A DNA stretch of 64,000 bases from Nocardioides sp. WS12 (GTDB lineage Bacteria; Actinomycetota; Actinomycetes; Propionibacteriales; Nocardioidaceae): the NCBI RefSeq assembly GCF_014108865.1, contig NZ_CP053928.1, positions 1,364,001 to 1,428,000 on the forward strand, given 5' to 3'. A program made the position numbers and the translations under genes. The first letter of the stretch is position 1, and each line of letters begins with the position of its first letter. Shown one piece after another: positions 968 to 51,056 of the stretch. The notes beneath the pieces were generated by a model. It was not told where the DNA came from. It did not search any database and saw nothing but the letters and a program-made list of their open reading frames with translations.

Positions 968-1672
968 ATGGAAGCGCGCGTGCACCGGGTCCTGATCTGG
1001 ACCGGTCCCCTGATGGTGGCCATCTGGTTCGCCACCTTCATCTTCGTGATGGGCTTCTTCCCGCCCTCAGCGCCCAGCGCCAGCGCCGAGGAGATCAAGC
1101 AGCTCTACGCCGACGACCCGACCCTGATCCGGCTCGGCCTCGTCGTCGTGATGGCCGCCTCGGCGCTGCTGGTGCCCTGGGCCGCTGCCATCTCGGGTCA
1201 GCTCAAGCGGATCGAGGGCGCCCGCGTCCTCGCGGCGACGCAGCTCGTGTCGTGCGGCCTGCTGTCCCTGGAGTTCATCACACCCATCGGCGTCTGGATG
1301 GCCGCGGCCTTCCGGTACGACGAGCGCCCTGCAGCCGTCACCCAGGCCCTGCACGACGTGGGCTGGATCCTCTTCGTCACCGTCATCTGGTCGCTGTGGA
1401 TGCAGATGTGGTGCATCGTCGCGGCGATCCTCATCGACCGTCGCGAGGAGCCGGTGCTGCCGCGCTGGCTCGCGTACCTGACGGCCTGGGCGGCGGTCCT
1501 GATCACCCCTGCCGGGCTGGTTCTCTTCTTCAAGGACGGACCCTTCGCGTGGGACGGCATCGTCGGGATTTACATCCCGCTGGCAGCGTTCGCGATCTGG
1601 ATGGTCTGCATCAGCCGCGAGGTGCACCGCGCGTTGACTCGCCAGATCGCCGAAGGCACCGAGCCCGGCTGA
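968..1672 (+). CDS. Six-TM membrane protein, seven-copy family (copy P1)
   Basis: 234 residues with about six hydrophobic spans (near 9-30, 57-76, 95-117, 130-155, 163-185, 193-215). I recognise no characterised family. Blocks shared with the paralogues in this window are FFPPSAPSASAEEI followed by an IRLG-like segment, an AAFRYDER...LHDVGW block, LPRW..Y, and FFKDGPFAWDG...IPL. The closest relative here is the protein at 37803-38549, which also begins MEAR..RVLIW.GPLMV. A GGAAAGAAG ribosome site precedes the ATG, and palindrome site A lies just upstream. No conserved histidine cluster or CxxC is seen, so it is not an obvious metal enzyme. Role unknown; other copies sit in operons with cytochrome-oxidase subunit III/IV-like genes. 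Confidence 0.8.
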   Translation: MEARVHRVLIWTGPLMVAIWFATFIFVMGFFPPSAPSASAEEIKQLYADDPTLIRLGLVVVMAASALLVPWAAAISGQLKRIEGARVLAATQLVSCGLLSLEFITPIGVWMAAAFRYDERPAAVTQALHDVGWILFVTVIWSLWMQMWCIVAAILIDRREEPVLPRWLAYLTAWAAVLITPAGLVLFFKDGPFAWDGIVGIYIPLAAFAIWMVCISREVHRALTRQIAEGTEPG

Positions 1673-1696
1673 GGCTGCAGGCCGAGGTCGGCTCAC

Positions 1697-1702
1697 TAGG
1701 CT
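1697..1702 (+). promoter_or_regulatory. -10 element of a leaderless promoter
   Basis: TAGGCT ends 7 nt before the ATG at 1710 and there is no ribosome site between them. The same arrangement precedes the TetR genes at 41076 and 49313. Confidence 0.5.
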
Positions 1703-1709
1703 CCGCACC

Positions 1710-2273
1710 ATGGATGCGCCCACCGCCCGCCTGGTCCGCGGCGCGCGTGATGCCTTCCTCGACCACGGGATCGAGGCGACCACGATGGCGGATGTCGCCC
1801 GGGCCGCGGGCGTCGTCCGGCAGACCGTCTACAAGTCGGTCTCGAACCGCGATGACCTCGTCGAGCTCGCCATGGTCCAGGTGTGCGAGGAGCTCCAGGC
1901 GAGGGTGGACGCCTTCGACCACGCGGCGTACGACGACCTCGGGGACCGGCTCGCCGAGTTCCTCGCTAGTGCGGTCGAGGTGACCGCCGGATCCGGCGAG
2001 CTCGCCGCACTGTCCGCTGCGTTGCCCGAGGAGAGGGTGCAGTCCGTCTTCGCCGGGTCGCGGCCGCTGGAGGTCCTGATCGGCCAGAGCCTGCACCCGA
2101 TTCTCGACGCGGCCGCAGCGACCGGCCGCCTGCGTCCCGGGGCCAGCGTGGATCTCGCGTCCCGCTGGCTGCAGGGCGTGCTGGCCCTGTTCCTGCTCGG
2201 GGAGTACGACGACCCGGGACGCCTGCGCCGGGAGCTGCGACGGTTCGCGGTGCCCTCGGTGCTGGTGGACTGA
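1710..2273 (+). CDS. TetR-family transcriptional regulator
   Basis: 187 residues. The N-terminal helix-turn-helix (about residues 8-55) contains TMADVARAAGVVRQTVY, a typical TetR DNA-binding domain. The C-terminal ligand domain is short and ends AVPSVLVD. It is a close paralogue of the regulators at 48738-49313 and 37206-37793, which share the GVVRQT(V/L)Y recognition helix, so the three may bind similar sites. The start is chosen because a -10-like TAGGCT lies 7 nt upstream without a Shine-Dalgarno, which fits a leaderless mRNA. It is convergent with the hydrolase gene and separated from it by 4 bp. It is a candidate regulator of the TTGAGAC palindromes seen across the window; the ligand is unknown. 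Confidence 0.88.
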   Translation: MDAPTARLVRGARDAFLDHGIEATTMADVARAAGVVRQTVYKSVSNRDDLVELAMVQVCEELQARVDAFDHAAYDDLGDRLAEFLASAVEVTAGSGELAALSAALPEERVQSVFAGSRPLEVLIGQSLHPILDAAAATGRLRPGASVDLASRWLQGVLALFLLGEYDDPGRLRRELRRFAVPSVLVD

Positions 2274-2277
2274 GGGC

Positions 2278-7837: not shown

Positions 7838-8623
7838 ATGGCCACCACTGTCAGGCCACCCAAGGCCACTCCGGTGCGCGCAAAGTTCGTGCCGTTAGGT
7901 GGGTTCTTTGCTCTAGCGGGCGATTCGCTGCGTGCGATGTTCCGTCGCCCATTCGCCGTGGGGGAGTTCCTCGAGCAAACGGTCTTCATCGCAAGCGTGT
8001 CCTTCCTGCCGGCGATCTTCGTGACGATCCCGTTCACGGTCGTCGTCCAGTTCTTCATCAACCAGCTCCTTCAGGAGATCGGCGCCACGGACCTCTCGGG
8101 TGCCGGCGCCGGTCTGGTCGTCATCCAGGAGCTCGGCCCGTTCTGCAGTGTCCTGGTGGTCGCAGGCGCTGGCGCCACAGCGGTGTGCGCCGACCTCGGC
8201 GCGCGCAAGATTCGCGAGGAACTGGACGCGATGGAGGTGCTCGGCCTCGACCCCATGCAGCGCCTGGTTGCTCCCCGAATCCTTGCCTTTGTCGTGGTTT
8301 CCCTCGGTCTCTACGGGATCGTCTGTGTGGTCGGATTGATCGGCACCTACATCTTCGCGGTCACACTTGGCGGCGCCAGCCCCGGCCTGTTCGTCGCCAA
8401 CCTGACCCTGGTCACGGGCACCGGTGCCTTCATCACAGCTCTGATCAAGACAGCGCTCTTCGGAGTCGCCGCCGCCCTTGTCGCCTGCTACCTCGGCATG
8501 AACGCCAAGGGCGGGCCCAAGGGCGTGGGTGAAGCCGTGAATCAGACCGTGGTCCTGACTCTCATGGTGCTGCTGGTCATCAACTCGACGATCACCACTG
8601 TCTACTTGCAGCTGGGAGGCTGA
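7838..8623 (+). CDS. yrbEA: YrbE-type Mce ABC transporter permease A
   Basis: 261 residues with about five or six membrane spans. It belongs to the MlaE/YrbE permease family: the EQTVFIASVSFLPAIF segment, the conserved ELDAMEVLGLDP EQ-loop-like coupling motif that contacts the ATPase, and a C-terminal NAKGGPKGVGEAVNQ block. It should sit in the plasma membrane, pair with the second YrbE permease and work with MceG (44793-45749) to move lipid delivered by the Mce needle. A GGGGAG site precedes the ATG. It is the first gene of a ten-gene operon in which most junctions overlap or nearly touch. A regulon palindrome lies immediately upstream. Confidence 0.93.
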   Translation: MATTVRPPKATPVRAKFVPLGGFFALAGDSLRAMFRRPFAVGEFLEQTVFIASVSFLPAIFVTIPFTVVVQFFINQLLQEIGATDLSGAGAGLVVIQELGPFCSVLVVAGAGATAVCADLGARKIREELDAMEVLGLDPMQRLVAPRILAFVVVSLGLYGIVCVVGLIGTYIFAVTLGGASPGLFVANLTLVTGTGAFITALIKTALFGVAAALVACYLGMNAKGGPKGVGEAVNQTVVLTLMVLLVINSTITTVYLQLGG

Positions 8624-8624
8624 C

Positions 8625-9515
8625 ATGGCACTCGCCGGTATGACCGAGGAGCGTACGGCGCTCAGCGCGGAGATCCGGGCGCGTCAGGTGGCAGCTCTCA
8701 AGCGCATCGTCACCACGCCTGGCCGAACCCTGTTCCACAGCGGTGAGCAAGTGCGGTTCTATGCCGCCGCGTTCAGGGGCATTCCGTACGCGCTGATGCA
8801 CTACCGACGCGAGGTCCTGCGGCTCATCTCGACGGTCGCCTTCGGCAGCGGCGCGATCGCGTTGGTCGGAGGCACGATCGTGGTTGTTTCCTTCCTCACC
8901 GCCTTCGCCGGCATCGAGCTCGGGCTCCAGGGCTACTCCCAGCTCAGCAACATTGGGGTGGAGGCGCTCAGCGGGTTCATCTCCGCCTACATCAACACCA
9001 GGTTGGCCGCACCGGCGCTGGCGGGCATCGCCCTGACCGCGACCGTCGGGGCCGGTTTCACTGCCCAGCTCGGCGCGATGCGGGTCAGCGAGGAGATCGA
9101 CGCCCTCGAGGTCATGTCCATCAAGTCGATTCCGTACCTGGTGAGCACCCGGATCGTCGCGGGACTCGTCTCGATCGTCCCGCTCTACGCTGTGGCGCTG
9201 CTGGCGTCTTATGCCGCTACGCGGCTGGTGGTGACCATCGGTTTCGGCCAGTCCAGCGGTGCATACCAGCACTACTTCAACACCTTCCTGATCCCGGGAG
9301 ACATCGTGCTCTCATTCGTGAAGGTGATGTGCATGTCCGTCGTGATCATGGCTGTCTGCTGCTACTACGGGTACACAGCAAAGGGCGGCCCAGCCGGCGT
9401 CGGGCAAGCAGTCGGGAGCGCCGTCCGGCTCTCCCTCATCGCCATCCTGTTCGCGGACATGCTGCTGAGCTTCGCGCTCTACGGCTCGTCCAACAGCCTC
9501 AACATCACCGGGTGA
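8625..9515 (+). CDS. yrbEB: YrbE-type Mce ABC transporter permease B
   Basis: 296 residues. MlaE/YrbE family with an N-terminal cytosolic extension of about 60 residues before the first membrane span. It carries the EEIDALEVMSIKSIPYL coupling motif and the C-terminal TAKGGPAGVGQAVG block also seen in the A permease. The two form the membrane channel of the Mce importer. It starts 1 nt after the stop of yrbEA with GGGAGG upstream, so expression is tightly linked. Assignment is firm; the transported lipid is unknown. Confidence 0.93.
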   Translation: MALAGMTEERTALSAEIRARQVAALKRIVTTPGRTLFHSGEQVRFYAAAFRGIPYALMHYRREVLRLISTVAFGSGAIALVGGTIVVVSFLTAFAGIELGLQGYSQLSNIGVEALSGFISAYINTRLAAPALAGIALTATVGAGFTAQLGAMRVSEEIDALEVMSIKSIPYLVSTRIVAGLVSIVPLYAVALLASYAATRLVVTIGFGQSSGAYQHYFNTFLIPGDIVLSFVKVMCMSVVIMAVCCYYGYTAKGGPAGVGQAVGSAVRLSLIAILFADMLLSFALYGSSNSLNITG

Positions 9516-9522
9516 TCCAGCA

Positions 9523-10776
9523 ATGACGTCCTCTCGCACAGTCCATGCGCGCCATCACACGCAGTTCCTCGGAGCCCTCGGCCTCGCGGTGATCATCATG
9601 GTGTCTGCCTTCCTGATCGCGACCTACCAGCGAGTCTTCGCCGACGTGGTGACCGTGACGGTCCAGACCGATCGCGGTGGCCTGCTGCTCGACAAGGGTG
9701 CCCGCGTCCGCATGTCCGGGGTCCCGGTCGGTGCGGTGACCAGCACCAAGGTCCAGGAGGACGGAACAGTCGCGGTCGGGGTGTCCCTCGACGCCGACAA
9801 GGCGGCTCTGGTGCCAGCTGATGCCGTCGCGACCATCCGCGCCACGACAGCTTTCGGGTCGAAGTTCGTCGACTTGCGCACGCCAGCCGAGCGCACGGCC
9901 AAGGGAGCGATCGCCGATGGCGATGTCATCAAGGCCAGCGGCGTTACCGTCGAGGTGAATGACGTGTTCCAGCACGGGCTCTCAGTGCTGGAAGCGGTCG
10001 ATCCCGTGAAGCTCAATTCCACCCTGACCGCGGCCGCGACCGCACTGGAGGGGCGTGGCGAGAAGTTCGGGCAGTTCTTCACTGACTGGGACAGCTACCT
10101 CACGGCGGTCGAACCCCACCTCGACGAGCTCGAGACCGACCTGTCCGCTTCCCCGGATGTGTTTCGGACGTACGCCGATGTCGCCCCCCAGTTCATCGAG
10201 ACCGGCGACAACTTCGCCACGACGAGTGAGACGCTGGTTGCTGACCAGGCGAAGTTCGATGCCCTCCTCAAGGAGACGCCGAAGGCCGCCGACTCCATCT
10301 CGCGGTTCCTCAATGCGGTCGAGCGCCCACTGGGTGCTTTCAACACCCAGTTGCTCCCGTTCTCCGCTCTGGGCGCTGAATACGCCCCGGAGTTCGGGTG
10401 CCTGATCAAGTCGGTTCGTACGCACATCGAGATCATCGACAAGGCCTTCGGCAAGACGGTCGATGGAGAGCACTACCTCTATGCCAAGACGGGGTTCCTG
10501 CCGAGCATCAACCCGTACACCTTGGAGAAGAACCGGCCCAAGCTTGTGACCGATGTCGGTCCACTCTGTTATCGAGAGGCAACGGCTGAGCGTCCGACGG
10601 TGCCGCATGTCGACTTTGACGACGGGACCGCGGGAACGTACTCCGAGGCCAACACCGCTAAGCCGGTCGGGGTCGGCGACAACCCCCTCCAGCTCTATTC
10701 GAACCTGGTCGATGACTGGTTCGGCAGCGAGGTCCTTGCGAAGCTCTTCGAGGCGCGGAATGGAGTAGACCAGTGA
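9523..10776 (+). CDS. mceA: Mce-family protein, MceA position
   Basis: 417 residues. An N-terminal membrane anchor (about 18-38) is followed by the MCE domain (VTVQTDRGGLLLDKGARVRMSGVPVG region, about 43-120) and a long helical tail. MCE proteins assemble a hexameric periplasmic tube that carries lipids to the YrbE permeases. The position as first of six consecutive mce genes after two yrbE genes is the standard actinobacterial order. Its stop overlaps the next start by 4 nt. Cysteines in FGCLI and GPLCYR near the end may form a disulfide outside the cell. Confidence 0.93.
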   Translation: MTSSRTVHARHHTQFLGALGLAVIIMVSAFLIATYQRVFADVVTVTVQTDRGGLLLDKGARVRMSGVPVGAVTSTKVQEDGTVAVGVSLDADKAALVPADAVATIRATTAFGSKFVDLRTPAERTAKGAIADGDVIKASGVTVEVNDVFQHGLSVLEAVDPVKLNSTLTAAATALEGRGEKFGQFFTDWDSYLTAVEPHLDELETDLSASPDVFRTYADVAPQFIETGDNFATTSETLVADQAKFDALLKETPKAADSISRFLNAVERPLGAFNTQLLPFSALGAEYAPEFGCLIKSVRTHIEIIDKAFGKTVDGEHYLYAKTGFLPSINPYTLEKNRPKLVTDVGPLCYREATAERPTVPHVDFDDGTAGTYSEANTAKPVGVGDNPLQLYSNLVDDWFGSEVLAKLFEARNGVDQ

Positions 10777-11807
10777 GGATCACCAGGGGACCGCTGATCA
10801 AGGTTCTGGCCTTCGTCCTGACGATGGGCTTCCTGATCAGCATGGTCGGGATCGTCTTCGGCCGAGTCAGGATCCAGCCGAGCAACGAGTTCGACGCGCT
10901 CTTCACCGACGCGTCGGGCATCAGTGCCGGGAGCGACGTGCGCGGCAACGGTGTTGCGGTGGGCACCGTCAAGGCGATCGCGCTCGATGATGACGGCCGG
11001 GCGCGGGTCACCTTCACCGTCGCCGAGGACGTCGCGTTGAACGAAGCCACCGATGCCCGTATCCGGTACGCGAACCTCACGGGTGACCGTTACCTCGACC
11101 TGACGCCAGGTGCCGAGGGCGCTGCGCCGCTGGAGCCGGGCGCGACGATCCCGCTTGAGCGGACCCAGCCGGCACTCGATCTGGACCAGTTCTTCCAGGG
11201 CTTCGACCCGCTGATGCGGGCCCTCGACGCTGACGAGGTCAATGAGCTCGCCACCAACGTCATCAACGTTACCCAAGGACAGTCGGGCGCCGTGGAATCG
11301 ATGCTGGCCAACGTTGGGTCATTCACCAGCCGCCTGGCTGAGCGCGACGAGCTGATCGGTTCAACGATCACCAACCTCTCAGCAGCGCTCACCGTCATCG
11401 ATGGGCACCACGAGGAGCTCGACAACCTCGTTGTCGGCCTGGCCGGCCTGATGGACGGGTTCGCGAAGGACCGAGAGGCAATCGGGTCGTCGTTGGCGTC
11501 GATCAACAAGGGTGCGGCTGCCACGGCTGACCTGCTTGAACGGATCCGGCCCGGGGTGAAGGCCAATATCGACCAGATCGGCCGACTGGCCAGGTCGATC
11601 AACGACAACGAGAACGACGTTCGCGAGGTGCTGGACATCTATCCGCGAGTGGTCAAGAAGCTCGGACGACTCGGTGCCTACGGCTCCTTCTTCAACTTCT
11701 ACCTGTGCGGGGTCAAGCTCAAGCTCGATCTGCCGGGTGAGGACCTCGACGTCTACACGCCGTGGGTCATCGACAACACCGGACGATGTGGCGGGGAGCA
11801 ACGCTGA
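10773..11807 (+). CDS. mceB: Mce-family protein, MceB position
   Basis: 344 residues, likely GTG start (GTGAGG) overlapping the mceA stop. N-terminal anchor about residues 10-30, then an MCE domain starting near FDALFTDASGISAGSDVRGNG (split: FDALFTDASG, then ISAGSDVRGNG), then a helical region ending with a CGVKLKLDLPG segment. The second of six Mce subunits expected to form the heterohexameric lipid tunnel. The stop shares bases with the mceC start (TGATG). Confidence 0.92.
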   Translation: MRITRGPLIKVLAFVLTMGFLISMVGIVFGRVRIQPSNEFDALFTDASGISAGSDVRGNGVAVGTVKAIALDDDGRARVTFTVAEDVALNEATDARIRYANLTGDRYLDLTPGAEGAAPLEPGATIPLERTQPALDLDQFFQGFDPLMRALDADEVNELATNVINVTQGQSGAVESMLANVGSFTSRLAERDELIGSTITNLSAALTVIDGHHEELDNLVVGLAGLMDGFAKDREAIGSSLASINKGAAATADLLERIRPGVKANIDQIGRLARSINDNENDVREVLDIYPRVVKKLGRLGAYGSFFNFYLCGVKLKLDLPGEDLDVYTPWVIDNTGRCGGEQR

Positions 11808-12841
11808 TGGCAACGCGGAAGAAGTCCAATGGCAAGGTTCGCCCGATGCGCCTGGCCTTCAGCGAGATGGACCTGGGCAAGATCGGCCTCGTCGGGCTGA
11901 TCCTTACCGTGGCGATCCTCGCTGGTGCACTGAACATCGGCAAGGTGCTGTCCCTGGTGGGCAACGCCACCTACACCGCTGACATGACCGAGGCAGGTGG
12001 CCTGCGCTCGGGCGACGACGTACGGGTCGCCGGCATCAAGGTCGGGAAGGTCAACGGCGTCGAACTGGCGGACGACCATGTGGTCGTGACCTTCGGTATC
12101 GAGGACATCGACCTCGGCGACAAGACCCGGGCAACGGTCAAGAGTGACAACGCGCTCGGCAGCAAGTTCCTCGCGGTCGAACCCCTGGGCTCCGGTGACA
12201 TCGACCACATCGCGATCGAGCGCACCGACGCGGGCTTCGCAGTCAACGAGGAGCTGGGCAAGCTGACGACTGCGACCGCCGAGATTGACGAGGATGCGCT
12301 GGCAAAGTCGTTCGAGTCGGTGAGCGCCGTGCTCAACGCGACCCCGACGGAGTTCCGATCTGCCCTTGAGGGGGTGAGCGCACTGTCGACCACGCTCAGC
12401 TCGCGGGACTCGGACCTGGCTGCGCTCCTGGACAAGGCCAGCAACGTTTCCTCGATCCTGGCCGAGCGCAACAAGGACATCACGTCGATCCTCGGTGACG
12501 GCAGCTTGCTGTTCGACGAGCTCCGTCAGCGTCGGGAAGTACTGGGCAACTTGTTGCGCAACGTGCAGAAGGCGACGGTCCAGTTGAATGGGCTGGCCAC
12601 GGACAACAAGAGCTCCCTGAAGCCGGCTCTCACCGAACTGCGGCAGACGGCGACCTTGCTGACGGAGTACAGGAGCACGCTCAAGCTGGCGCTCAAGGCG
12701 ACTGGTGGTTACATCCGGTCGTTGGGTGAGTCCGTCGCCGGTGGCCCGTTCTTCCAGGCTTACGTCGCCAACATCGGTTCTCCCGAGGACCTCGGCACCG
12801 GCGGCCTCGCCGGACTCCTCGAAGGGCAAGGTGCGTTCTGA
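11807..12841 (+). CDS. mceC: Mce-family protein, MceC position
   Basis: 344 residues. A basic N-terminus (MATRKKSNGK) precedes one membrane span (about 24-45). The MCE domain includes YTADMTEAGGLRSGDDVRVAG (in two parts: YTADMTEAGG and LRSGDDVRVAG) and is followed by a helical coiled stretch rich in SERNKD-like repeats. Start chosen at the ATG overlapping the mceB stop. Third subunit of the Mce tube. Confidence 0.92.
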   Translation: MATRKKSNGKVRPMRLAFSEMDLGKIGLVGLILTVAILAGALNIGKVLSLVGNATYTADMTEAGGLRSGDDVRVAGIKVGKVNGVELADDHVVVTFGIEDIDLGDKTRATVKSDNALGSKFLAVEPLGSGDIDHIAIERTDAGFAVNEELGKLTTATAEIDEDALAKSFESVSAVLNATPTEFRSALEGVSALSTTLSSRDSDLAALLDKASNVSSILAERNKDITSILGDGSLLFDELRQRREVLGNLLRNVQKATVQLNGLATDNKSSLKPALTELRQTATLLTEYRSTLKLALKATGGYIRSLGESVAGGPFFQAYVANIGSPEDLGTGGLAGLLEGQGAF

Positions 12842-14073: not shown

Positions 14074-14074
14074 C

Positions 14075-33541: not shown

Positions 33542-33552
33542 GATCGTCCCTT

Positions 33553-35181: not shown

Positions 35182-35204
35182 CGAAGGTCACGGGATCCGG
35201 CGGG

Positions 35205-39593: not shown

Positions 39594-39603
39594 GGGCACT
39601 CCA

Positions 39604-41075: not shown

Positions 41076-41765
41076 ATGAGCCAGCCCTCCCGAAAGCCCG
41101 CCAGTGTGGTCTGGGGACGCGGTCGCAACCTGCTCCTGACCGCGGCCCGCGACCTGTTCGCCGAGCACGGGTACGACTCCGTGACGACGCGCCAGATCGC
41201 TGAATCTGCGGGGGTTTCCGAGCAAATGGTGTTTCGCCATTTCGGATCCAAGGCCAATCTCTTCGAGGCCGCCGCCGTGGCTCCATTCGTCGAGCACCTC
41301 GATGCGTATGTCGCTGACTGGGAGCGACGGCCGACGGGAGAGCGTGACGCGGTGGAAGAAGCAGCGGACCTTTACCGCGGCATGTACGAAGTGTTCGCAG
41401 CGAACCGGGGCCTACTCGCGGCACTCCTGTCCTTCCAGGGCGACTCGCCCTCCGGGTCTGCTGAGGCGATCGGCGGGATCCTCGGGCCGGCCCTGGACCG
41501 ATTCGCCGATCTGTTGACCACGGAGCAGAAGCAACGCGGATTCCGGGATTTTGACACGCGGATCGTGGTTAGGCTCGTGGCCGGGTTGGTGATGTCGCAG
41601 ACCGCTTTCGGTGACCTGCTGTACGGCGATGACGCCCCTCCGCGGGCGGAGGCGATCATCCGTGAGATGGCGATGCTGACCATCTTTGGTGCGTGGCCGC
41701 CCGAGGCGTTCGGTCCTCTCGGTGAAGCGCGTGTTGTGCGGCCAGGCGACCCGGCCAGCCGGTGA
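41076..41765 (+). CDS. TetR-family transcriptional regulator
   Basis: 229 residues. HTH: VTTRQIAESAGVSEQMVFRHF (parts TTRQIAESAGVSEQ and MVFRHF) near residues 35-60. The recognition helix differs from the GVVRQT(V/L)Y trio, so it should bind another site. It is divergent from the P5 operon, its likely target. The last 110 nt overlap, tail to tail, the 3' end of the FAD oxidoreductase gene on the other strand. Start at 41076 is preferred over an upstream in-frame ATG because the HTH then has a normal N-terminal arm. Confidence 0.87.
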   Translation: MSQPSRKPASVVWGRGRNLLLTAARDLFAEHGYDSVTTRQIAESAGVSEQMVFRHFGSKANLFEAAAVAPFVEHLDAYVADWERRPTGERDAVEEAADLYRGMYEVFAANRGLLAALLSFQGDSPSGSAEAIGGILGPALDRFADLLTTEQKQRGFRDFDTRIVVRLVAGLVMSQTAFGDLLYGDDAPPRAEAIIREMAMLTIFGAWPPEAFGPLGEARVVRPGDPASR

Positions 41766-43290
41766 CACCGCCGCTCGGGTGGGCAGCGGCCCCCGCGAGG
41801 TAGAGGCCGGCCACGGGCGTGTCATAGCCGCCGAAGCCGCGGGCGGGACGCAGCGCGCCGAGCCGGTTGACCAGCATGTCGACGTGGAAGAAGGCGCCGG
41901 CTGGGGCGGCGAAGCGGCTCTCGAAGTCCGCAGGTGAGGTCACCACGCGGCCGATCTCGGTGTCCGTGCCGCCGAGGAAGCGTTGCGCCGATTTCCAGAC
42001 GGCGTCGGTGATCGAGTCCTTCGCGGTTTCCCAACCGCCGTCCGGGCGCAGCGGCACGTTGGAGTTCAGGTAGAGCACGTCGCCCCCCTCGGGAGCGATC
42101 GTCGGGTCGACCGCCGACAGGATCGCCATGTAGACCGGGGGATTCTCGGTGTTGAGGCCGACCCGCATGGCGCGCATCTGAGCGATGTGGTCCTCAAGAG
42201 TGCCCGTCATGAGCGTGGCCTTGCGTACGTCGGCGTCGTCGCGGCGCTTGCGGCGCAGCTCGGCAGCAGGGAACCCGATCCGCCCGCCGGTGGCCATGTC
42301 GATCTTGAAGGCCGCGACGTTGATCGAGTTGGACGGCACCATCGCCACGCGGTTGTGTTCGGTGCGGGTCAGGTGCTCGGGGGCCAGCAGGGGACCGAAG
42401 GTCACCTGCGGGGCGAGGTTCGACAGCACGCCGTGGCGGGCGTGCACGGTGCTCCCGTCCTGGAGTCGTACGCCGACCGCCCGGCCGCCCTCCACGAGGA
42501 TCTCTGCGACGGCTGACTCGAGGCGCAGCTCACCGCCGTTCTCCTCGAGGACCCCCTGCATCGCGCGGACCAGGCTGGTCATCCCACCTCGAGGGCGCAC
42601 CACTCCCGGACCGCGGTGCACGCCGGCGAAGCCGAGCACATAGGCGCCGCTGCCGATCGCGTCGGACGGCCCGATCATGCTCGACCAGTAGGCCCACAGG
42701 CCGCGCATCGCATCGGACTCGAAGGTCTCCGAGATCCACTCGAACGCATTCAGGGTGGCCAGCTGTCCCAGCAGGCGGCGGGTGGCGCGGTCGGGGCGGT
42801 GGCGCAGCAGGTAGCGGGCGAAGTCGCGCTTGCCCCAGGCCGACGGGTGCTGGATGAACAGCTGATCGACCAGGTCCATCACCCAGTTGATCGGACCCTG
42901 GAGGTCGGCGTAGGTGCGGGCGTCGGCGTGTGAGAAGTGCCGGATCTCCTCGACGGCGCGACGCGGGTCGCGCCACAGCAGGAGGGTCTCGCCGTCCTCG
43001 TCCACCCAGCCGTAGGGGTGGTCGAGCGGGATCGTTTCGTAGCCGTGGCGGCGCAGGCCGAGCTCGGCGGCCAGGGGCGTCTGTGCCATGAACATGTCGT
43101 CCATCGCGCCCAGGCTGAGCAGGTGATCCGGGGCCTCGGGCAAGTAGGCGTGGCTCGCGGAGAGGCCGCCCGGGATCGGAAGTTGCTCCAGCACGCAGAC
43201 GGTCCGGCCGCTCGCGGCGAGGGTCGCTCCCGCCGAGAGCCCGTTGTGACCGGCCCCGACGACGACGTAGTCGAAGGTCTGCGTCGTCAC
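41656..43290 (-). CDS. CrtI/PYROXD2-like FAD-dependent oxidoreductase
   Basis: 544 residues. FAD motif VVVGAGHNGLSAGATLAASG at residues 8-27, VLEQLPIPGGLS, then LSLGAMDDMFM and GSMIGPSDAIGSGAYV, and the C-terminal FAD-closing motif GLYLAGAAAHPSGGVTGWPG. This matches the phytoene desaturase/PYROXD2 group, flavoproteins of polyene or lipid metabolism. GTG start overlaps the stop of the membrane protein at 43287. The C-terminus extends about 20 residues past the family motif and overlaps the convergent TetR gene by 110 nt. It is paralogous to the partial gene at 1-853. With the carotenoid-type oxygenase nearby, an isoprenoid substrate is plausible. Confidence 0.87.
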   Translation of the reverse strand: MTTQTFDYVVVGAGHNGLSAGATLAASGRTVCVLEQLPIPGGLSASHAYLPEAPDHLLSLGAMDDMFMAQTPLAAELGLRRHGYETIPLDHPYGWVDEDGETLLLWRDPRRAVEEIRHFSHADARTYADLQGPINWVMDLVDQLFIQHPSAWGKRDFARYLLRHRPDRATRRLLGQLATLNAFEWISETFESDAMRGLWAYWSSMIGPSDAIGSGAYVLGFAGVHRGPGVVRPRGGMTSLVRAMQGVLEENGGELRLESAVAEILVEGGRAVGVRLQDGSTVHARHGVLSNLAPQVTFGPLLAPEHLTRTEHNRVAMVPSNSINVAAFKIDMATGGRIGFPAAELRRKRRDDADVRKATLMTGTLEDHIAQMRAMRVGLNTENPPVYMAILSAVDPTIAPEGGDVLYLNSNVPLRPDGGWETAKDSITDAVWKSAQRFLGGTDTEIGRVVTSPADFESRFAAPAGAFFHVDMLVNRLGALRPARGFGGYDTPVAGLYLAGAAAHPSGGVTGWPGRLAAQHALHREDRTPRAATHQRWSASPSHG

Positions 43291-44021
43291 GAAGCACTCG
43301 CGCCCAGGTCGTCGAGGCGTGGTGCGGGAGCACCCCGGTCGGCCCGGAGCCTGCTGACCCAGACGGCGACGCCGACCAGGCCCGCGAACGCGACGACACC
43401 GGACGAGAGGTACTGCCAAGTGCGGAAGGCATCGCCGTAAGCCCCTGCTGTGACGCCCCACCAGAGCGGGATCATGGCAGCGAAGCAGGCGTAGATGACG
43501 GGCGACTGGGAGATCGCCGACCGGCGACGCAGGATCAGCGGGACCACGGCCAGGGGAAGCGCGTAGAGAGTGGTCGCGGCCAGGGCCTGGTAGAGCGGGT
43601 CGTCCCAGATCGTCTTCTGGTACTCCCAGCAGAGCACGAACAGCGCGGCTCCGCCGAAGAGCAGCGCGCCCCACTGCCGCTGGCTGCCGTTCGGGAGGTA
43701 CTCCTTGCGTCCGACCCGCAATGCCTGGGCGAGGAAGACGAGCTCGAGGAGGAAGGCGGTCACCAGGCCGACCCAGAAGAGCTTGAGGAACCAGTGGTCG
43801 TAGGTGTTGAACCAGGTGTCGAAGCGGACGACGACGCCGAGGTCGTGGGCGAACCACAGGAACGTGCAGGGGAGCGGGATCGAGATCCAGCCCTCGCGCC
43901 TGGTCATCACGACCGCGGTGACCATGGCGACGTTCTGCAGCATCATGGCGAGGGTGAAGCCGATCATGATCGGCCAGGTGTGGTCGTCGATCGCGTCGAG
44001 GATGGTCTGTGGCTCGTACAC
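43287..44021 (-). CDS. Multi-pass membrane protein with HD/TYDHWF motifs (copy 1 of 2)
   Basis: 244 residues, about seven spans. I do not recognise the family. It shares with the next gene the block LWFAHDLGVVVRFDTWF-NTYDHWFLKLFW and a following Glu (FLLELVFLAQALRVGRKE). The conserved His-Asp, Asp-Trp and Tyr-Asp-His residues at the membrane edge look catalytic. Size and topology recall fungal Pyr4-type membrane terpene cyclases, but that is a guess without a search. GTG start with AGGA 6 nt upstream. In operon with MceG upstream and the desaturase-like flavoenzyme downstream (GTGA overlap). Confidence 0.72.
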   Translation of the reverse strand: MYEPQTILDAIDDHTWPIMIGFTLAMMLQNVAMVTAVVMTRREGWISIPLPCTFLWFAHDLGVVVRFDTWFNTYDHWFLKLFWVGLVTAFLLELVFLAQALRVGRKEYLPNGSQRQWGALLFGGAALFVLCWEYQKTIWDDPLYQALAATTLYALPLAVVPLILRRRSAISQSPVIYACFAAMIPLWWGVTAGAYGDAFRTWQYLSSGVVAFAGLVGVAVWVSRLRADRGAPAPRLDDLGASAS

Positions 44022-44043
44022 GGCTGGTCCTGTCGGGGGTGGG

Positions 44044-44792: not shown

Positions 44793-45749
44793 TCAGAGAC
44801 CAGCCGCGGCCAGGGGCTGAGCGTCGGTGAATGATCCCGGCGGGGGCGTGATGCCGTTGTCACGGCACCAGGCACCGGGTTCGCGCTGGCGGCGCCGGGG
44901 GATGCCGTTCGAGGGCAGCAGTTGGGACCCGATCGGCGGCAGAGGCGGGAGATCCATGCCCTTCTCCGCTGCCAGTTCATCGGCGTCCTTCTCCTCGGAC
45001 ATGCCGATCGGGCCGACCTTCTGGGCATTGAGGAACTGGCGGACGACGGGCTCCTCGGAGGAGAGGAGCATCTCGCGCGGGCCGAACATGGCCAGGTGCC
45101 GGTGGTAGAGCAGGCCGATGTTGTCGGGGATCGTGCGGGCCGTGTGGATGTCGTGGGTCACGATCAGGAAGGTGGCATCGATCTGCGCGTTGAGGTCGAC
45201 GAAGAGCTGGTTGATGAACGACGTGCGCACGGGGTCCAGGCCGGAGTCGGGCTCGTCGACCAGCAGGATCTCGGGCTCGAGCACGAGGGCGCGGGCCAGG
45301 CCTGCGCGCTTGCGCATGCCGCCCGAGATCTCGCCGGGGAGCTTGAGCTCGGCGCCGGTCAGGCCGACCAGTTCCATCTTCTCCATGACGATGCGGCGGA
45401 TCTCGGACTCGCCCTTGTTGGTGTGCTCGCGAAGGGGGAAGGCAACGTTGTCGTAGAGGTTCATTGAGCCGAACATCGCGCCGTCCTGGAAGAGCACCCC
45501 GAACATGCGGCGGATCTCGAACAGCTCTGCCTTGCGACACGTGGCAAGGTCGGTTCCCTCGATGATCACGGAGCCGCTGTCGGGCTTGAGCAGGCCGATC
45601 AGTGTCTTGAGGAGCACCGACTTGCCGGTGCCTGATGGGCCGAGCATCACCGAGAGCTCGCCCGCAGGCAGGGTCAGCGAGACGTCACCCCAGATCACCT
45701 GCCGTCCAAAACTCTTCGTCAGGTGCTCGATCTTGATCTCGACGCCCAT
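44793..45749 (-). CDS. mceG: Mce transporter ATPase (MceG/MlaF family)
   Basis: 318 residues. ABC ATPase with Walker A GPSGTGKS near 37-44, Q-loop LFQDGAMF, signature ISGGMRKRAGLARAL near 143, Walker B ILLVDEPDSGLDPVR and the H-loop THDIH. The C-terminal extension of about 70 residues after the ATPase core is a feature of actinobacterial MceG. It energises the YrbE/Mce importer encoded at 7838-17728. It is the first gene of an operon with two multi-pass membrane proteins and the flavoenzyme. Carrying the same palindrome as the mce operon suggests they are switched on together. Confidence 0.93.
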   Translation of the reverse strand: MGVEIKIEHLTKSFGRQVIWGDVSLTLPAGELSVMLGPSGTGKSVLLKTLIGLLKPDSGSVIIEGTDLATCRKAELFEIRRMFGVLFQDGAMFGSMNLYDNVAFPLREHTNKGESEIRRIVMEKMELVGLTGAELKLPGEISGGMRKRAGLARALVLEPEILLVDEPDSGLDPVRTSFINQLFVDLNAQIDATFLIVTHDIHTARTIPDNIGLLYHRHLAMFGPREMLLSSEEPVVRQFLNAQKVGPIGMSEEKDADELAAEKGMDLPPLPPIGSQLLPSNGIPRRRQREPGAWCRDNGITPPPGSFTDAQPLAAAGL

Positions 45750-45771
45750 GTCTTTTCCGCTTCCGTGACGA

Positions 45772-45797
45772 TTTATGAATCTTGCTGTCTAAATAAA
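45772..45797. promoter_or_regulatory. Regulon palindrome, site H (mceG operon)
   Basis: Read on the minus strand: TTTAGACAG...ATTCATAAA, with TTTA/TAAA outer arms. It lies 22 bp before the mceG start codon. Confidence 0.55.
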
Positions 45798-45879
45798 CCG
45801 CGTGAGGCGCGTCACGTCAACCGTCAGCGAAGGGTTGGCTGCCGCGGACATGCCTTGACCAGCGCGGACGCGGAAGATA

Positions 45880-45903
45880 AATTGAGACGAGCAAGTTCAG
45901 AAT
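45880..45903. promoter_or_regulatory. Regulon palindrome, site I (carotenoid oxygenase)
   Basis: AATTGAGAC and GTTCAGAAT half-sites are separated by 6 bp. Nearly identical to site B at 5677; 62 bp before the start at 45966. Confidence 0.65.
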
Positions 45904-45965
45904 GTTGCTCCTGGTGGATCGAACTCGTCCGGGAGCGGATGCTTGAGTCGAAACAAGGAGCAACG

Positions 45966-47459
45966 ATGAATTACAACCTCCCGACCGAGAACTCACTGCG
46001 AGGGCCGTTCCAGCCCATGCGGTTCGAGGCGACGGTCGACGAGTGCATCGTCACCCACGGCGAGATCCCCAAGGACCTGGCTGGAGGTTTCTACCGGGTG
46101 GGTCCCACGTGGAAGCGCCCCACGAAGCAGGGGCCGAACCCGCTCCTCAGCATGGACGGAATGGTCCAGGCGATCACGTTCGAGGACGGCGTTGCCAACT
46201 TCAAGAACCGCTGGGTGCGTACTCCCAAGTACGTCCTCGAGGAGGCCCGCAAGCAGGGCATGTTCGAGTGGCAGGACGGCGGCTTCGGTGATTGGCGCGA
46301 CACGGCTTACGGCGAGGTCAAGCGCGACGCTGGCAACCAGGGCGTCTCGCGCGGTGTCTCCAACATCAACATCTTTCCGTTCGCCGGCGAGATGCTCGCC
46401 TCGAGCGAGCAGGGCGGCCCACCGATCGCCATCGATCCGATCACCCTCGAGACGCGCGGCATTGTGCCCTGGTCGCCGAAGCTCTCTTCGGGGCTGCACA
46501 CCCCCGCCGCCTACGGCGACGCCACGTTCTCCGCCCACCCGAAGTGGGACCCGGACACAGGTGTCCTCTACGGCTGGACGTACAGCGACGAGGCGCCCTA
46601 CGTCGTCATGCACTACGTGAGCCCCGACGGCACCGTCGACACCCGTGAACTTTGGGACGCGCCGTACAACACCGTGGCCCACGACATCTGGCTGACTCCG
46701 GAGTGGGTCGTGATGCCCTTCCAGCCCTTCCTCGTCGACAAGAAGCGCTTCGAGAAGGACCTCAACATCTGGGAGTGGAACGAGGAGCTGCCGATCATCA
46801 TCGGCCTCATTCCGCGCCGCGACCTGCACGGTGAGATCCGCTGGATCAAGACCGACCTTCCGCCGCAGTACGTCATGCACACGATGTCGGCCAACGTGGT
46901 CGGCAACGAGCTCCAGCTCGACGGCCCGATCTTCAACCGGCCCCCGTTCCCGTTCGAGCAGGACTTCACTGCGGGCGACGACATTGCACTGTTCTTCTCG
47001 ATCGCGAAGAGCAACCTGGGTCGCTGGTGCATCGACCTGACGACGGGCAAGGCCCGTGCTGAGCAGCTCTCGGACCGACCTTCCGAACTCCCGAAGGTCG
47101 ACGAGCGTTTCTACGGCAAGGGTTACGAGTGGGGCTTCTCGGTCGGCGGCGTGGTCAAGCGCAGCGGCATGAAGATGAACAACCTCACCGTGACGAACAT
47201 GAAGACGCTGTCCGAGTCGACCTACCAGATCCGTGACAACGAGCCCGCCGCCGTGCTCGAGGCGACCTTCGCACCCCGCAAGATCGACTCGCCCGAGGGA
47301 GACGGCTACATCATCGTCCCCGTCTCGTGGTGGGCCGAGAAGCGCGGTGAGTACCTGATCTTCGACACCGACGACGTGAGCGACGGACCCATCTGTCGCA
47401 TCGAGCTGCCCTTCCAGATCGGCTGGACACCGCACGGACATTGGATGGACTTCCGCTGA
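45966..47459 (+). CDS. Carotenoid cleavage oxygenase-family protein (RPE65/CCD type)
   Basis: 497 residues, usual size. Four His ligands of the non-heme iron are visible: FSAHPKWD near residue 180, NTVAHDIWL near 238, YVMHTMSAN near 303 and the C-terminal TPHGHWMDFR. N-terminal GEIPKDLAGGFYRVGPTW is characteristic of the family. Members cleave a double bond in carotenoids, apocarotenoids or stilbenes with O2. The start at 45966 follows AAGGAG. It is divergent from the mceG operon, with a separate regulon palindrome. A perfect 12-bp hairpin follows the stop. Confidence 0.9.
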   Translation: MNYNLPTENSLRGPFQPMRFEATVDECIVTHGEIPKDLAGGFYRVGPTWKRPTKQGPNPLLSMDGMVQAITFEDGVANFKNRWVRTPKYVLEEARKQGMFEWQDGGFGDWRDTAYGEVKRDAGNQGVSRGVSNINIFPFAGEMLASSEQGGPPIAIDPITLETRGIVPWSPKLSSGLHTPAAYGDATFSAHPKWDPDTGVLYGWTYSDEAPYVVMHYVSPDGTVDTRELWDAPYNTVAHDIWLTPEWVVMPFQPFLVDKKRFEKDLNIWEWNEELPIIIGLIPRRDLHGEIRWIKTDLPPQYVMHTMSANVVGNELQLDGPIFNRPPFPFEQDFTAGDDIALFFSIAKSNLGRWCIDLTTGKARAEQLSDRPSELPKVDERFYGKGYEWGFSVGGVVKRSGMKMNNLTVTNMKTLSESTYQIRDNEPAAVLEATFAPRKIDSPEGDGYIIVPVSWWAEKRGEYLIFDTDDVSDGPICRIELPFQIGWTPHGHWMDFR

Positions 47460-48601: not shown

Positions 48602-48737
48602 CCGGTTGCCAGGGGTTGCCCGTGGCCGTTCGCCGAGAACGGAACAATCCGATCGGAGTTCCCTGTGGTGAGCTATGCCATCAGGATGGTCACCGCCGTG
48701 GTGTGCGTGCACGAGGTGCTGAACAGTCCGATCGCGT

Positions 48738-49313
48738 TCAGTCGTGTGCGACGTCGGTCAGTACCGACGGCAGGGCGAAGGTGCGCAGGACGTGCTCCAG
48801 TTGCCCACCCCGGGCGGCATCGTGGAGCAGGGCGAACGTCAGTACCCCCTGGATCCAGCGCCCGGCCTCGTCAACGGTCGTGTCGCCGCGCAGCCGCCCG
48901 GCCGACTTGGCTCGCTCCAGGACGGGGCGCGCCGTCTCGCGGATGAGCTCTTCGATGGGGTGCGAGTGGCCGAAGAGTTCCTTGACCCGATCAGCGGGCA
49001 GGGCCGCATTCAGTTCGTTGAGTTCGGTGTGAGTCGAAGCGGTGTCCACCGCGCGCATCAGGAAGGCCAGAAGTGCCTCGTCAACGTCGTCGGGATCGCC
49101 GGCGCCTGCAGTAGTCAGGTGCTCCTTGAGCTCTTCGCAGCACTGCACGATCGCGAGCTCAACGAGCTCGTCGCGGCTCGACACGGTGTTGTAGACGGTC
49201 TGTCGCACGACGCCGGCTGCCTTGGCCACGTCGGCCATCGTGGACCGTCGGACGCCGTAACGGGCGAAGGTCTCCCTGGCGGCACGCGTCAGGAGCGCCG
49301 CGGAGTGATCCAT
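48738..49313 (-). CDS. TetR-family transcriptional regulator
   Basis: 191 residues. HTH with RRSTMADVAKAAGVVRQTVY, nearly the same as the regulator at 1710, and a similar C-terminus (ALPSVLTD versus AVPSVLVD). Two starts are possible. I chose 49313 because TAGCCT sits 7 nt upstream, exactly as before the paralogue at 1710; the ATG at 49340 has AGGAGG at a long distance. It is upstream of the second P7 - norE-like - norF-like operon but on the same strand and downstream of it (55 bp), so it may be transcribed with it or alone. A candidate regulator of the TTGAGAC sites. Confidence 0.86.
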   Translation of the reverse strand: MDHSAALLTRAARETFARYGVRRSTMADVAKAAGVVRQTVYNTVSSRDELVELAIVQCCEELKEHLTTAGAGDPDDVDEALLAFLMRAVDTASTHTELNELNAALPADRVKELFGHSHPIEELIRETARPVLERAKSAGRLRGDTTVDEAGRWIQGVLTFALLHDAARGGQLEHVLRTFALPSVLTDVAHD

Positions 49314-49320
49314 GCCGGAA

Positions 49321-49326
49321 AGGCTA
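49321..49326 (-). promoter_or_regulatory. -10 element of a leaderless promoter
   Basis: TAGCCT on the minus strand ends 7 nt before the ATG at 49313. Confidence 0.45.
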
Positions 49327-49367
49327 GTGGTCGGTTGCATTCCGTTTGCTCGTCCCTCCTTGCGTGG

Positions 49368-49670
49368 TCATGCGGCGAAGTAGAACCCCAGCGTCGCTAG
49401 GCACACCACCAGGCACCAGACCTCGAGCAACAGCCGCAGAGCCAAGGGCGCGTGATTGAGCTCCATGAAGTACAGGCCCACGAACCGGACCTTGACGAAG
49501 GCGACGACCATGATGATGGTGCTTGCCGTGGTGTGGTCGTCGACGAACCCGTGATCAGTGCCGAGGGCCCAGGACAGGACCGTGGCGAGTATCAAGAAGA
49601 CCCAGACCACCGTGGCTTTGGAGCGGAACAGGTTGATGGTGGAGCGGGCGTTCGTGTCGAGAGTGCTCAT
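49368..49670 (-). CDS. norF: NorF/cytochrome oxidase subunit IV-like small membrane protein (second copy)
   Basis: 100 residues, three spans. SWALGTDHGF...VAFVKVRFVGLYFMELNHAPLALR is the subunit IV/NorF pattern (parts: SWALGTDHGF, AFVKVRFVGLYFMEL, NHAPLALR), clearly related to the protein at 39312. It lies 4 bp downstream of the subunit III-like gene. Together with that gene and P7 it repeats the P - NorE - NorF order found at 39312-41000. Confidence 0.78.
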   Translation of the reverse strand: MSTLDTNARSTINLFRSKATVVWVFLILATVLSWALGTDHGFVDDHTTASTIIMVVAFVKVRFVGLYFMELNHAPLALRLLLEVWCLVVCLATLGFYFAA

Positions 49671-49674
49671 GGGT

Positions 49675-50286
49675 TCACCTCACGAGGAAGATCAGCGGGA
49701 AGAGGACGAGCCAGAGCAGGTCGACCATGTGCCAGAAGCAGGCGCCGCCTTCGAAGAAGACGAACTGACCCCTGGACAGTGACGCCTTGCGTGCCATCAG
49801 GACCATCACGGTCAGCACGATCAGTCCGAGAATGAGATGGAAGGCGTGCAGGCCAGTCAGGACGAAGTAGTACATGTAGAAGTCGCTGGTTTGGGGCGTG
49901 ATCCCGTGGCTGATCTTCTCGGAGTACTCCAGCACCTTGACGCCCAGGAAGCCGGCGCCACAGAACCAGGCACCGATCAGGAGTCTCGGCGTCCAGGAGT
50001 GGTGGTCGGCCGAGCGGATCGAGCGCATCGCCAGGACGACGAGGAAGGAGCTGAGCAGCAGCAGGACCGTGTTGAGGGCCCCGTAGTTCTGATTGAGTTG
50101 GGCCTGGTCTGCAGCGAAACCGCTGGGGTCGGAGATCCGGGCTTGCAGGAAGACGCAGAAGAAGACAGCAAAGACGCACATGTCGCCGAAGATGAAGATC
50201 CAGGTCCCCTCCTCGCCAGGCACCCGGCGCTTCGGGTTGTCTTCGCCAGCGTCCGGCGCGAGCAGGTCAACCTCGAGGCCGGCCAT
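49675..50286 (-). CDS. norE: NorE/cytochrome oxidase subunit III-like protein (second copy)
   Basis: 203 residues, five spans. PGEEGTWIFIFGDMCVFAVFF (PGEEGTWIFIFGD), GVKVLEYSEKI with the conserved Glu, VLTGLHAFHLILGL, and FWHMVDLLWLVLFPLIF. It is a paralogue of the protein at 39604, diverged enough to suggest an old duplication. ATG overlaps the P7 stop (TGATG). As at the other locus, no catalytic oxidase subunit accompanies it. Confidence 0.87.
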   Translation of the reverse strand: MAGLEVDLLAPDAGEDNPKRRVPGEEGTWIFIFGDMCVFAVFFCVFLQARISDPSGFAADQAQLNQNYGALNTVLLLLSSFLVVLAMRSIRSADHHSWTPRLLIGAWFCGAGFLGVKVLEYSEKISHGITPQTSDFYMYYFVLTGLHAFHLILGLIVLTVMVLMARKASLSRGQFVFFEGGACFWHMVDLLWLVLFPLIFLVR

Positions 50287-51056
50287 CAGAGGAACGCCGT
50301 CTCGAGGTCGCGTTCTTTTGCGGCTCCGGAACGCTGGTCATCCTCCTGGCCGCGCAGCGCGCGGAAGAGGAGCCAGCACTGGATGGTGATCCAAACGCCG
50401 AACAGGGTCAGCGGTGACCAGAAGACGAGCAGGCCGTTCCATGCCAGGGGGCCGGTCTTCGGAATGAACGCGAACGCACCGGCTTCGAACATCACGGTGA
50501 TCCAGAGCGACAGGTAGCCCCACCAGCGGGGGAAGGGATTGTTTGACACCAACTGGGTCGCCGGTCGGAGGGCCAGGACGGTCACGCCGACCCACATGAA
50601 GATGTAGTACTGGTCGGTCGTAGTGAGGGTGAGCAGGCCGATCTGGTGTGCGAGAGCGGTGATCTCGGGCTCCCGGTCGGCGGTGAAGGCCGCCGCGCCC
50701 CAGAAGATCGGAGGCAGCGCGAGGAACAGGGACATCAGGGCACCGCTGACCAGGGACAGCGCGCTCCAGATCTTCGCTCCACCGGTCTCCACGCGGGCCA
50801 TCTGGATGGCCACGACAGCCAGGATCGGCATCATGAACGCGCCGGTCCAGCCGGAGATCACGGCGCCCCAGCGGATGCTCGTTGAATGGTCGCGATAGAA
50901 CTCCGAGACGCTCTCGGCAGACCAGTCGGCGCTCGGCGGCGGAACCATGCGCATCAGAAAGATCAGCGCGAGGGCGTAGGCGACGGCGAGCCCGATTCCC
51001 CACCACAGGATGGCGCGTTGGCTCTTCACTGAGAAGAGGGACGTCGTGGCGGACAT
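50286..51056 (-). CDS. Six-TM membrane protein, seven-copy family (copy P7)
   Basis: 256 residues with six spans. The most diverged copy but still recognisable: MVPPPSADWSAESVSEFYRD...IRWG, AAFTADREPEITALAHQIGLL, FPRWWGYLSLW and FIPKTGPLAWNGLLVFW. First gene of the second P - norE-like - norF-like operon. The divergent promoter region at 51105-51209 contains both a regulon palindrome and a partial copy of the 37068 inverted repeat. Function unknown. Confidence 0.77.
   Translation of the reverse strand: MSATTSLFSVKSQRAILWWGIGLAVAYALALIFLMRMVPPPSADWSAESVSEFYRDHSTSIRWGAVISGWTGAFMMPILAVVAIQMARVETGGAKIWSALSLVSGALMSLFLALPPIFWGAAAFTADREPEITALAHQIGLLTLTTTDQYYIFMWVGVTVLALRPATQLVSNNPFPRWWGYLSLWITVMFEAGAFAFIPKTGPLAWNGLLVFWSPLTLFGVWITIQCWLLFRALRGQEDDQRSGAAKERDLETAFL

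Follow-up and report, generated by a model that had tools for sequence, protein, structure and literature searches.

A six-transmembrane protein family in recurrent gene sets with COX3- and COX4-type genes: a candidate heme-free membrane complex in Nocardioides sp. WS12 and other bacteria

Introduction

Heme-copper oxidases carry COX3 and COX4 as their classic side-subunits (subunits III and IV), the role of which is still debated. In such oxidases (bo3, aa3), they are encoded with the catalytic subunit I (COX1). norEFCBQD, the gene cluster of the cytochrome c-dependent nitric oxide (NO) reductase, contains adjoining genes for COX3-type and COX4-type small membrane subunits, NorE and NorF. Here, we analyzed a stretch of 64,000 nucleotides of Nocardioides sp. 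WS12 (hereafter, the window; positions 1364001–1428000 of a genome consisting of a single contig of 5,171,066 bases), in which NorE- and NorF-like genes adjoin members of a family of proteins predicted to have six transmembrane helices (six-TM). We report that six-TM, COX3-type and COX4-type genes form sets that recur across phyla, and we propose that their products constitute a heme-free membrane complex.

These sets differ from the described systems. In contrast to the oxidases, they have no subunit I gene beside them, and a six-TM/COX3 model, taken as a whole, did not fit the fused subunit I and III chain 2yev_A. In contrast to norEFCBQD, linked NorB was found in none of 63 six-TM loci and NorQ in 4, although the window itself contains NorQ- and NorD-like genes. 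The six-TM partner has no conserved His or Cys residues that might serve as ligands (149 aligned sequences). The gene set thus matches neither heme-copper oxidases nor the Nor system, literature searches, mostly by title, found no published description of a six-TM/COX3/COX4 gene set, and its function is a prediction. By passage search, PMC12507874 does not contain NorE as a whole word, and PMC6678751 has 'nore' only within a steroid name and does not mention 'cytochrome c oxidase'.

Results and Discussion

The six-TM family

An earlier note on the window, made from its sequence alone, had proposed seven paralogous genes of an unrecognized family. All seven open reading frames (ORFs) were indeed present at the positions and on the strands given, and their products aligned from end to end. 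P1 (968..1672, + strand, followed by a TetR gene), P3 (37803..38549, – strand) and P6 (47840..48601, + strand) were identified by ORF, genome search and alignment; P2 (36287..37048, – strand; start uncertain, with the longest ORF reaching 37132) and P7 (50286..51056, – strand) by ORF and alignment; P4 (38560..39261, – strand) by alignment; and P5 (40197..41021, – strand) by alignment and an AlphaFold2 model. The gene at 38560 is real, but the 5΄ end of its ORF had been over-extended: a COX4-type gene sits at 39312–39599, and the start codon was chosen downstream of it. Identity to the 37803 copy (P3) ranged from 27 to 58%, and nine columns were invariant in the alignment of the seven copies. 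P1, the closest relative of P3 in the window, shares 58% identity with it across a distance of 36 kb. The motif blocks ascribed to all seven copies were less uniform than claimed, as the 40197 protein has FFKGTEMAYDG and the 36287 protein has GPMSQDG instead of GPFAWNG, and the 50286 protein lacks the ND.GWL block.

Using the 37803 protein as a query, we found six-TM genes at 13 places in the genome, including the seven of the window, each with E 2.5e-22 or better, far beyond chance; 12 of the 13 lie within 193 kb (1.365–1.558 Mb). In Mycobacterium triplex (the genome of L071), the family is amplified locally to a very large extent, as 21 of 26 six-TM matches fall between 4.83 and 5.12 Mb. A wide search yielded at least 782 relatives among 7999 scored candidates, and Nocardioides, Mycobacterium and Aeromicrobium appear among the named relatives in the 120 matches listed.

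Among 149 aligned family members, the PRW block, the GPxAWxG block and the charged residues R103, R138, D152, D179 and R188 were conserved, in copies with a COX3 partner and in orphan copies alike; no clear residue difference between these two groups was seen at the 45 most conserved positions. The earlier statement that no cofactor residue pattern is evident agreed with this alignment: no well-filled column had a majority of His or Cys, and the highest values, at two positions, were 52/149 for Cys and 47/149 for His. A metal or heme enzyme is therefore disfavored. The AlphaFold2 model of P5 (40200–40997 folded; predicted local distance difference test 89.6, predicted template modeling score (pTM) 0.84) contains six transmembrane-length helical spans, and this one modeled copy supports the predicted six-TM topology of the family.

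No convincing Pfam or NCBIfam match was obtained for any six-TM copy of the window, and no solved structure was matched by sequence. A Foldseek search with the six-TM model alone gave nothing significant, with no row above the helical-bundle background; the rhodopsin and Ste2 rows were not accepted as kinship. Kinship with COX3, with AveC-like proteins or with a second membrane protein family of the window (the 44044 family, see below) was rejected as well, since hhalign found none (probability 0.65 for AveC-like proteins and 3.0 for the 44044 family). The description of the family as unrecognized was nevertheless somewhat too strong, since a distant relationship to DUF4386 (PF14329), a name without function, is possible. 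Eight of 65 aligned family members matched DUF4386 weakly at E ≤ 0.01 (best 2.1e-6) and some UniRef names of six-TM relatives read DUF4386, whereas 0/7 window copies matched at E ≤ 1. DUF4386 is named in no paper of the literature searched, and the family, structure and literature sources searched assign no function to six-TM proteins, in agreement with the earlier note.

Linkage of six-TM genes to COX3- and COX4-type genes

The window contains two sets. The first has the gene order P5, COX3, COX4_pro, P4 and P3; its COX3-type (NorE-like) gene (39604..40200, – strand; PF00510, E 1.5e-14) overlaps P5 by 4 bases, and its COX4_pro (NorF-like) gene (39312..39599, – strand; 52.7 bits), which the earlier gene list lacked, lies between P4 and COX3. 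The second is opened by P7, which overlaps a COX3-type (NorE-like) gene (49675..50286, – strand; PF00510, E 1.3e-15) by one base; a COX4_pro (NorF-like) gene (49368..49670, – strand; PF03626, E 5.4e-14) follows after a 4-base gap. The COX3 assignment is based on a PF00510 score above the cut-off and a subunit III fold, with E 2.7e-26 to bo3 subunit III, and the COX4_pro assignment on a PF03626 score above the cut-off.

Two further sets lie in the same genome outside the window, in the orders COX3-COX4-six-TM (L001) and six-TM-COX3-COX4 (L005). Genome-wide, five COX3 matches were found, four of which adjoin six-TM genes; the fifth, at 2573965, is presumably the respiratory subunit. All four COX4_pro matches adjoin six-TM genes, and COX1 has a single match, at 2559265.

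To examine other genomes, we used an alignment of NorE-type COX3 proteins and retained the best 79 of 570 confirmed matches as named loci. They come from Nocardioides, Aeromicrobium, Mycobacterium/Mycolicibacterium, Nocardia, Gordonia, Pseudonocardia, Frankia, gamma-, beta- and alphaproteobacteria, and others. Because COX3 served as the bait, the counts measure the presence of six-TM genes given COX3. Gene-family labels were initially assigned by eye, and representatives were later confirmed with Pfam. COX4 was present in 79/79 loci and a six-TM profile match in 63/79; the six-TM gene lies within 600 bp of COX3 in 57/79, on the same strand in 51. A frequent gene run was six-TM-COX3-COX4 or COX3-COX4-six-TM, often with nothing else, and the same order, with overlapping or near-overlapping genes, was observed in Actinomycetota and Proteobacteria. 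JGI names many relatives of the COX3-type gene 'nitric oxide reductase NorE protein'. However, a NorB/COX1-type gene was present in the flanks of 0/63 loci with six-TM genes, compared with 6/16 of those without (P = 2.9e-5; two of the six NorB were confirmed as PF00115), and no search was aimed at NorC.

We also surveyed 296 genomes of the phylum, scoring up to nine six-TM candidates per genome. Six-TM matches were found at E ≤ 0.001 in 21 genomes and at E ≤ 1e-55 in 8, and COX4_pro was found in 102/296. In the eight strong genomes, every one of the 16 COX4_pro matches has a six-TM match no more than 0.81 kb away; in the other 13, the tables showed no tie between COX4_pro and six-TM genes. Within the window's own class (26 of the 296 genomes), COX4_pro occurred in 6 and all 12 matches adjoin six-TM genes, whereas beyond this class COX4_pro is common without six-TM genes and is presumably an ordinary oxidase subunit. 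A survey of 196 genomes of the order detected COX4_pro in four, and six-TM genes at E ≤ 1e-50 only in the same four; two further genomes had a distant six-TM match near 1e-21. For eight of the nine COX4_pro matches in this survey, the distance to a six-TM match is at most 0.8 kb, and for one it is 2.6 kb. The proposed tie of the family to NorE/NorF-type genes was thus upheld, and no genome with strong six-TM matches had many copies and never NorE/NorF.

Six-TM/COX3/COX4 sets were also seen on unexpected records, namely two of Calothrix (L063 and L066) and a metagenome-assembled genome labeled Klebsiella pneumoniae (L126), for which mis-binning or contamination is possible.

Co-variation and predicted joint folding of six-TM and COX3

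Over 56 adjacent sets, six-TM and COX3 distances were correlated (r = 0.69; 0/5000 permutations, and also 0/5000 within taxon groups), and the correlation was r = 0.87 in the 20 mycobacterial sets (0/5000 permutations). The nearest relative was identical for six-TM and COX3 in 26/56 sets. These results show that the sets travel as units, as judged from sequence distances; because linked genes share their history, and correlated trees can arise from co-inheritance alone, the correlation is not evidence of contact. In one actinobacterial family (L037–L043), two distinct six-TM clades occur as tandem pairs upstream of COX3-COX4, with first copies nearest to first copies and second copies nearest to second copies (7/7 each); the pairs of L060 and L061 do not follow this pattern.

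A read-through chain of the neighboring six-TM and COX3 proteins (COX4 not included) folded as one unit with pTM 0.81, a value without a negative control, from a chain form that favors packing and an alignment in which 6/106 rows span both proteins; for an unplaced two-domain chain, we estimate a pTM of ~0.5. Direct docking of six-TM on COX3 is thus a prediction of the model. The structural rows with longer subunit III chains place the docking site weakly, since 14/27 align the COX3 half alone and 13/27 are extended. They suggest only that six-TM helices 3–4 may lie near the site of the two N-terminal helices of longer COX3 proteins, which are lacking here; in that position, they would close the lipid-holding cleft of COX3. 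The whole chain deviated from 2yev_A by a root-mean-square deviation of 12.8 over 306 residues. The idea that a six-TM pair stands in for the 12 helices of COX1 is unsupported by this fit and is speculation only.

A proposed heme-free complex

We consider it probable that six-TM, COX3-type and COX4-type proteins form a heme-free membrane complex, in which a common COX3/COX4 base would carry exchangeable six-TM subunits. Given such a complex, a substrate-handling role appears reasonably likely: the six-TM paralogs would each differ in the hydrophobic substrate that they bind and hand on to nearby oxidative catabolic enzymes. For the complex and this role together, we estimate a probability of about 0.5. 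The cleft of COX3 may hold an isoprenoid- or steroid-like substrate, the paralogs, each perhaps controlled by a TetR regulator of its own, may confer specificity, and orphan six-TM copies may share one COX3/COX4 pair. From the amplification beside NorE/NorF/NorQ/NorD-like genes, the earlier note had viewed the paralogs as variable subunits or substrate receptors of one membrane machine; the numbers in this genome (13 six-TM genes and 4 NorE/NorF sets) fit variable subunits, but NorQ and NorD are not generally linked to them (see below).

Several observations weigh against this proposal, beside the limits of the distance correlation and of the joint model given above. The six-TM gene is 1.5–6.1 kb away from COX3 in 6 named loci, and 16/79 loci have no six-TM gene in the examined flank, 10 of which also lack NorB. 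These 10 have COX3-COX4 alone, mostly amid acyl-CoA dehydrogenase (ACAD), enoyl-CoA hydratase (ECH), CaiB, FAD or RPE65-type genes, with unrelated genes in L090, L093 and L104; in all 10 cases, the genome has six-TM matches at other places (2 to 26 per genome), and L068 and L071 share a genome with another locus. Of the genomes with the six NorB loci, one contains six-TM genes as well (three copies). In the examined loci, 71/153 six-TM genes have no same-strand COX3 beside them, and most copies in this genome lack a COX3 of their own. The named loci are not independent either: L058/L060, L059/L071, L065/L091 (overlapping), L068/L098, L100/L110 and L062/L096/L118/L119 each share a genome, L073 and L100 are close relatives, and some loci are near-identical.

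If the proposal is true, subunits III and IV also function outside respiration, perhaps in connection with the lipid cleft of COX3, and the purpose of subunit III could be tested where oxidase activity is absent. The large unnamed six-TM family would gain a working frame, and the label 'cytochrome c oxidase subunit 3 family' on actinobacterial and proteobacterial genes would take on a different meaning. A broader generalization is tentative and, in our opinion, doubtful: widespread heme-free 'pseudo-oxidase' complexes might exist, in which a COX3/COX4 base without a heme-copper subunit carries expandable six-TM receptors (13 here and 26 in M. triplex) or sometimes a fixed six-TM pair (12 helices), with the lipid cleft of COX3 closed around a steroid- or isoprenoid-like substrate that would be passed to oxidative catabolism.

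Functional setting and alternative explanations

We compared neighboring gene families between Mycobacteriales loci and 40 control segments from three genomes. From 31 loci picked (24 named loci, one of these from Gordonia, and 7 others), four shorter than 15 kb were dropped, leaving 27. Nine of 19 families differed at P < 0.05, namely ACAD, TetR, CrtO-type FAD, thiolase, P450, ECH, AveC, SDR and aldehyde dehydrogenase (ALDH), where P values are uncorrected, controls stem from three genomes and the family models were partly built from the case loci; these limits also count against the proposed setting, as does the fact that 10/19 families, among them NorQ, Mce, RPE65, CaiB, MlaF and Rieske, missed this threshold. 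For the tally of operon neighbors, NorB loci and ORFs shorter than 60 residues were excluded (62/97 kept), followed by two short ones; among the 60 scanned, the amine-oxidase-type FAD domain was the commonest (11), and 10 were TetR. The window also encodes P450, acyl-CoA dehydrogenase, enoyl-CoA hydratase, SDR, CoA-transferase, aldehyde dehydrogenase and Mce-type genes. This setting looks like regulated oxidation and beta-oxidation of hydrophobic compounds; the class of compound, from the Mce, RPE65, CrtO and AveC-type neighbors, is a guess.

The same neighbors could be read differently, with the set acting as a maturation or protection factor that stabilizes or activates nearby O2-using enzymes (P450, FAD, RPE65 or Rieske types), a role that NorE/NorF and COX3 presumably play toward their own oxidases. 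NorE and NorF are accessory proteins in denitrifiers, and O2-using or FAD enzymes are frequent neighbors (P450 in 10/27 and CrtO-type FAD in 11/27 Mycobacteriales loci), with the amine-oxidase-type FAD domain leading the operon tally. However, no single enzyme is present throughout, many gene runs consist of six-TM, COX3 and COX4 only, and 13–26 copies suit a diversity of substrates or partners better than one general factor. We therefore regard this explanation as unlikely, although it survives best among the alternatives.

The conserved charged residues and the strongly conserved GPxAWxG loop would also suit cofactor-free membrane enzymes of an isomerase or cyclase type, for which COX3 and COX4 are mere scaffolds, and the same loci encode further multi-TM proteins for which no cofactor is known (AveC-like proteins and the 44044 family). 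This appears rather improbable, since hhalign found no profile similarity to either family and no catalytic residue set was identified. A still less probable explanation is that the extra COX3 and COX4 serve the single aa3-type oxidase as alternative subunits and that six-TM proteins regulate respiration. The COX3-type proteins indeed have the sequence and fold of an ordinary subunit III, and the genome has one COX1; however, it has a further COX3 at 2573965, subunit I is beside the sets in 0/63 loci, and the sets are patchy, being present in 4/196 genomes of the order. Finally, co-inheritance of an accessory catabolic island without common function, which would fit the patchy distribution and the clustering of 12/13 copies within 193 kb, is very improbable given the gene order and the overlaps or near-overlaps shared by Actinomycetota and Proteobacteria, the mutual exclusion of NorB and six-TM beside this COX3, and the high-confidence, if uncontrolled, joint fold.

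NorQ/NorD and AveC-like genes

The earlier note had also tied NorQ and NorD to the six-TM genes. This was not supported as a general link by the named loci, in which NorQ accompanied six-TM genes in 4/63 and NorB in 6/6. In eight six-TM genomes, 8/15 NorQ matches lie within 4 kb of an AveC-like match, whereas only the NorQ match of this window (1/15) is that close to a six-TM match on the same contig. On these counts, NorQ/NorD was rejected as a general part of the proposed six-TM complex. The genes are nevertheless genuine in this window: a NorQ/CbbQ-type AAA ATPase (32702..33541, – strand; domain search) forms an AveC-NorQ-NorD set with a NorD-like VWA protein (33553..35181, – strand; PF13519 at E 7.8e-4, below the cut-off, with homologs adjoining NorQ elsewhere) and an AveC-like membrane protein (35205..36290, – strand; PF17198, E 5.2e-46). 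The window is thus a meeting place of this set and the six-TM-COX3-COX4 sets, and similar unions were found in L091, L118, L119 and L121.

NorQ/NorD genes lie beside AveC-like genes at 32702–36290 of the window and in five surveyed genomes (G038, G050, G055, G074 and G096), and it is possible that they encode an AAA/VWA activator set for AveC-like membrane proteins. The AveC-like spirocyclase family (PF17198) resembles the six-TM family in that its members are membrane proteins, often in the same loci (7/27 Mycobacteriales loci compared with 1/40 controls), but it differs in lacking profile similarity and in accompanying NorQ. AveC-like proteins (35205–36290, with relatives in L060–L121) have conserved D..E and P..E residues, presumably reminiscent of CrtYcd-type membrane lycopene cyclases. 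The AveC passages of PMC5819568 only name the protein.

Other features of the window

Four TetR regulators (PF00440) accompany the six-TM genes: one adjoins P1 (1710..2273, + strand; E 1.7e-9), one lies between P2 and P3 (37206..37793, + strand; E 3e-10), one is divergent from P5 (41025..41765, + strand; E 5.3e-19) and one follows the P7/COX3/COX4 run (48738..49340, – strand; E 3.3e-9). Between the two sets lie genes for a CrtO/amine-oxidase-type FAD protein (41656..43338, – strand; domain search), an MlaF/MceG-type ATPase (44793..45749, – strand; domain search) and an RPE65-type carotenoid/stilbene oxygenase (45723..47459, + strand; PF03055, E 1.2e-86), the ORF start of which is over-extended. 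Two paralogous membrane proteins of the 44044 family, in which H-D, W-F, E and Q residues do not vary, are encoded at 43287–44787, between the MlaF-type and CrtO-type genes, and the family is also present in L055–L057, L076, L079, L087, L091 and L118.

An Mce operon (7838..17728, + strand), given here as context only, comprises two MlaE-type permease genes, six MlaD/Mce-type genes (phmmer) and two following genes; a Pfam check covered 4/10 of these (MlaE twice, Mce4_CUP1/MlaD and MlaD). As a general partner of six-TM genes, Mce was rejected, being not enriched in Mycobacteriales loci (2/27 compared with 1/40). Complete or partial Mce operons lie directly upstream of, or divergent from, six-TM/COX3/COX4 genes in L005 (1–8286), L072 (2–9193) and L041 (4250–12873), and YrbE genes adjoin a six-TM gene in L002.

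The cluster is bordered by a transposase/integrase-type ORF with rve and HTH domains (52646–54059), which adjoins a tRNA-Arg gene and possibly marks a mobile-element boundary.

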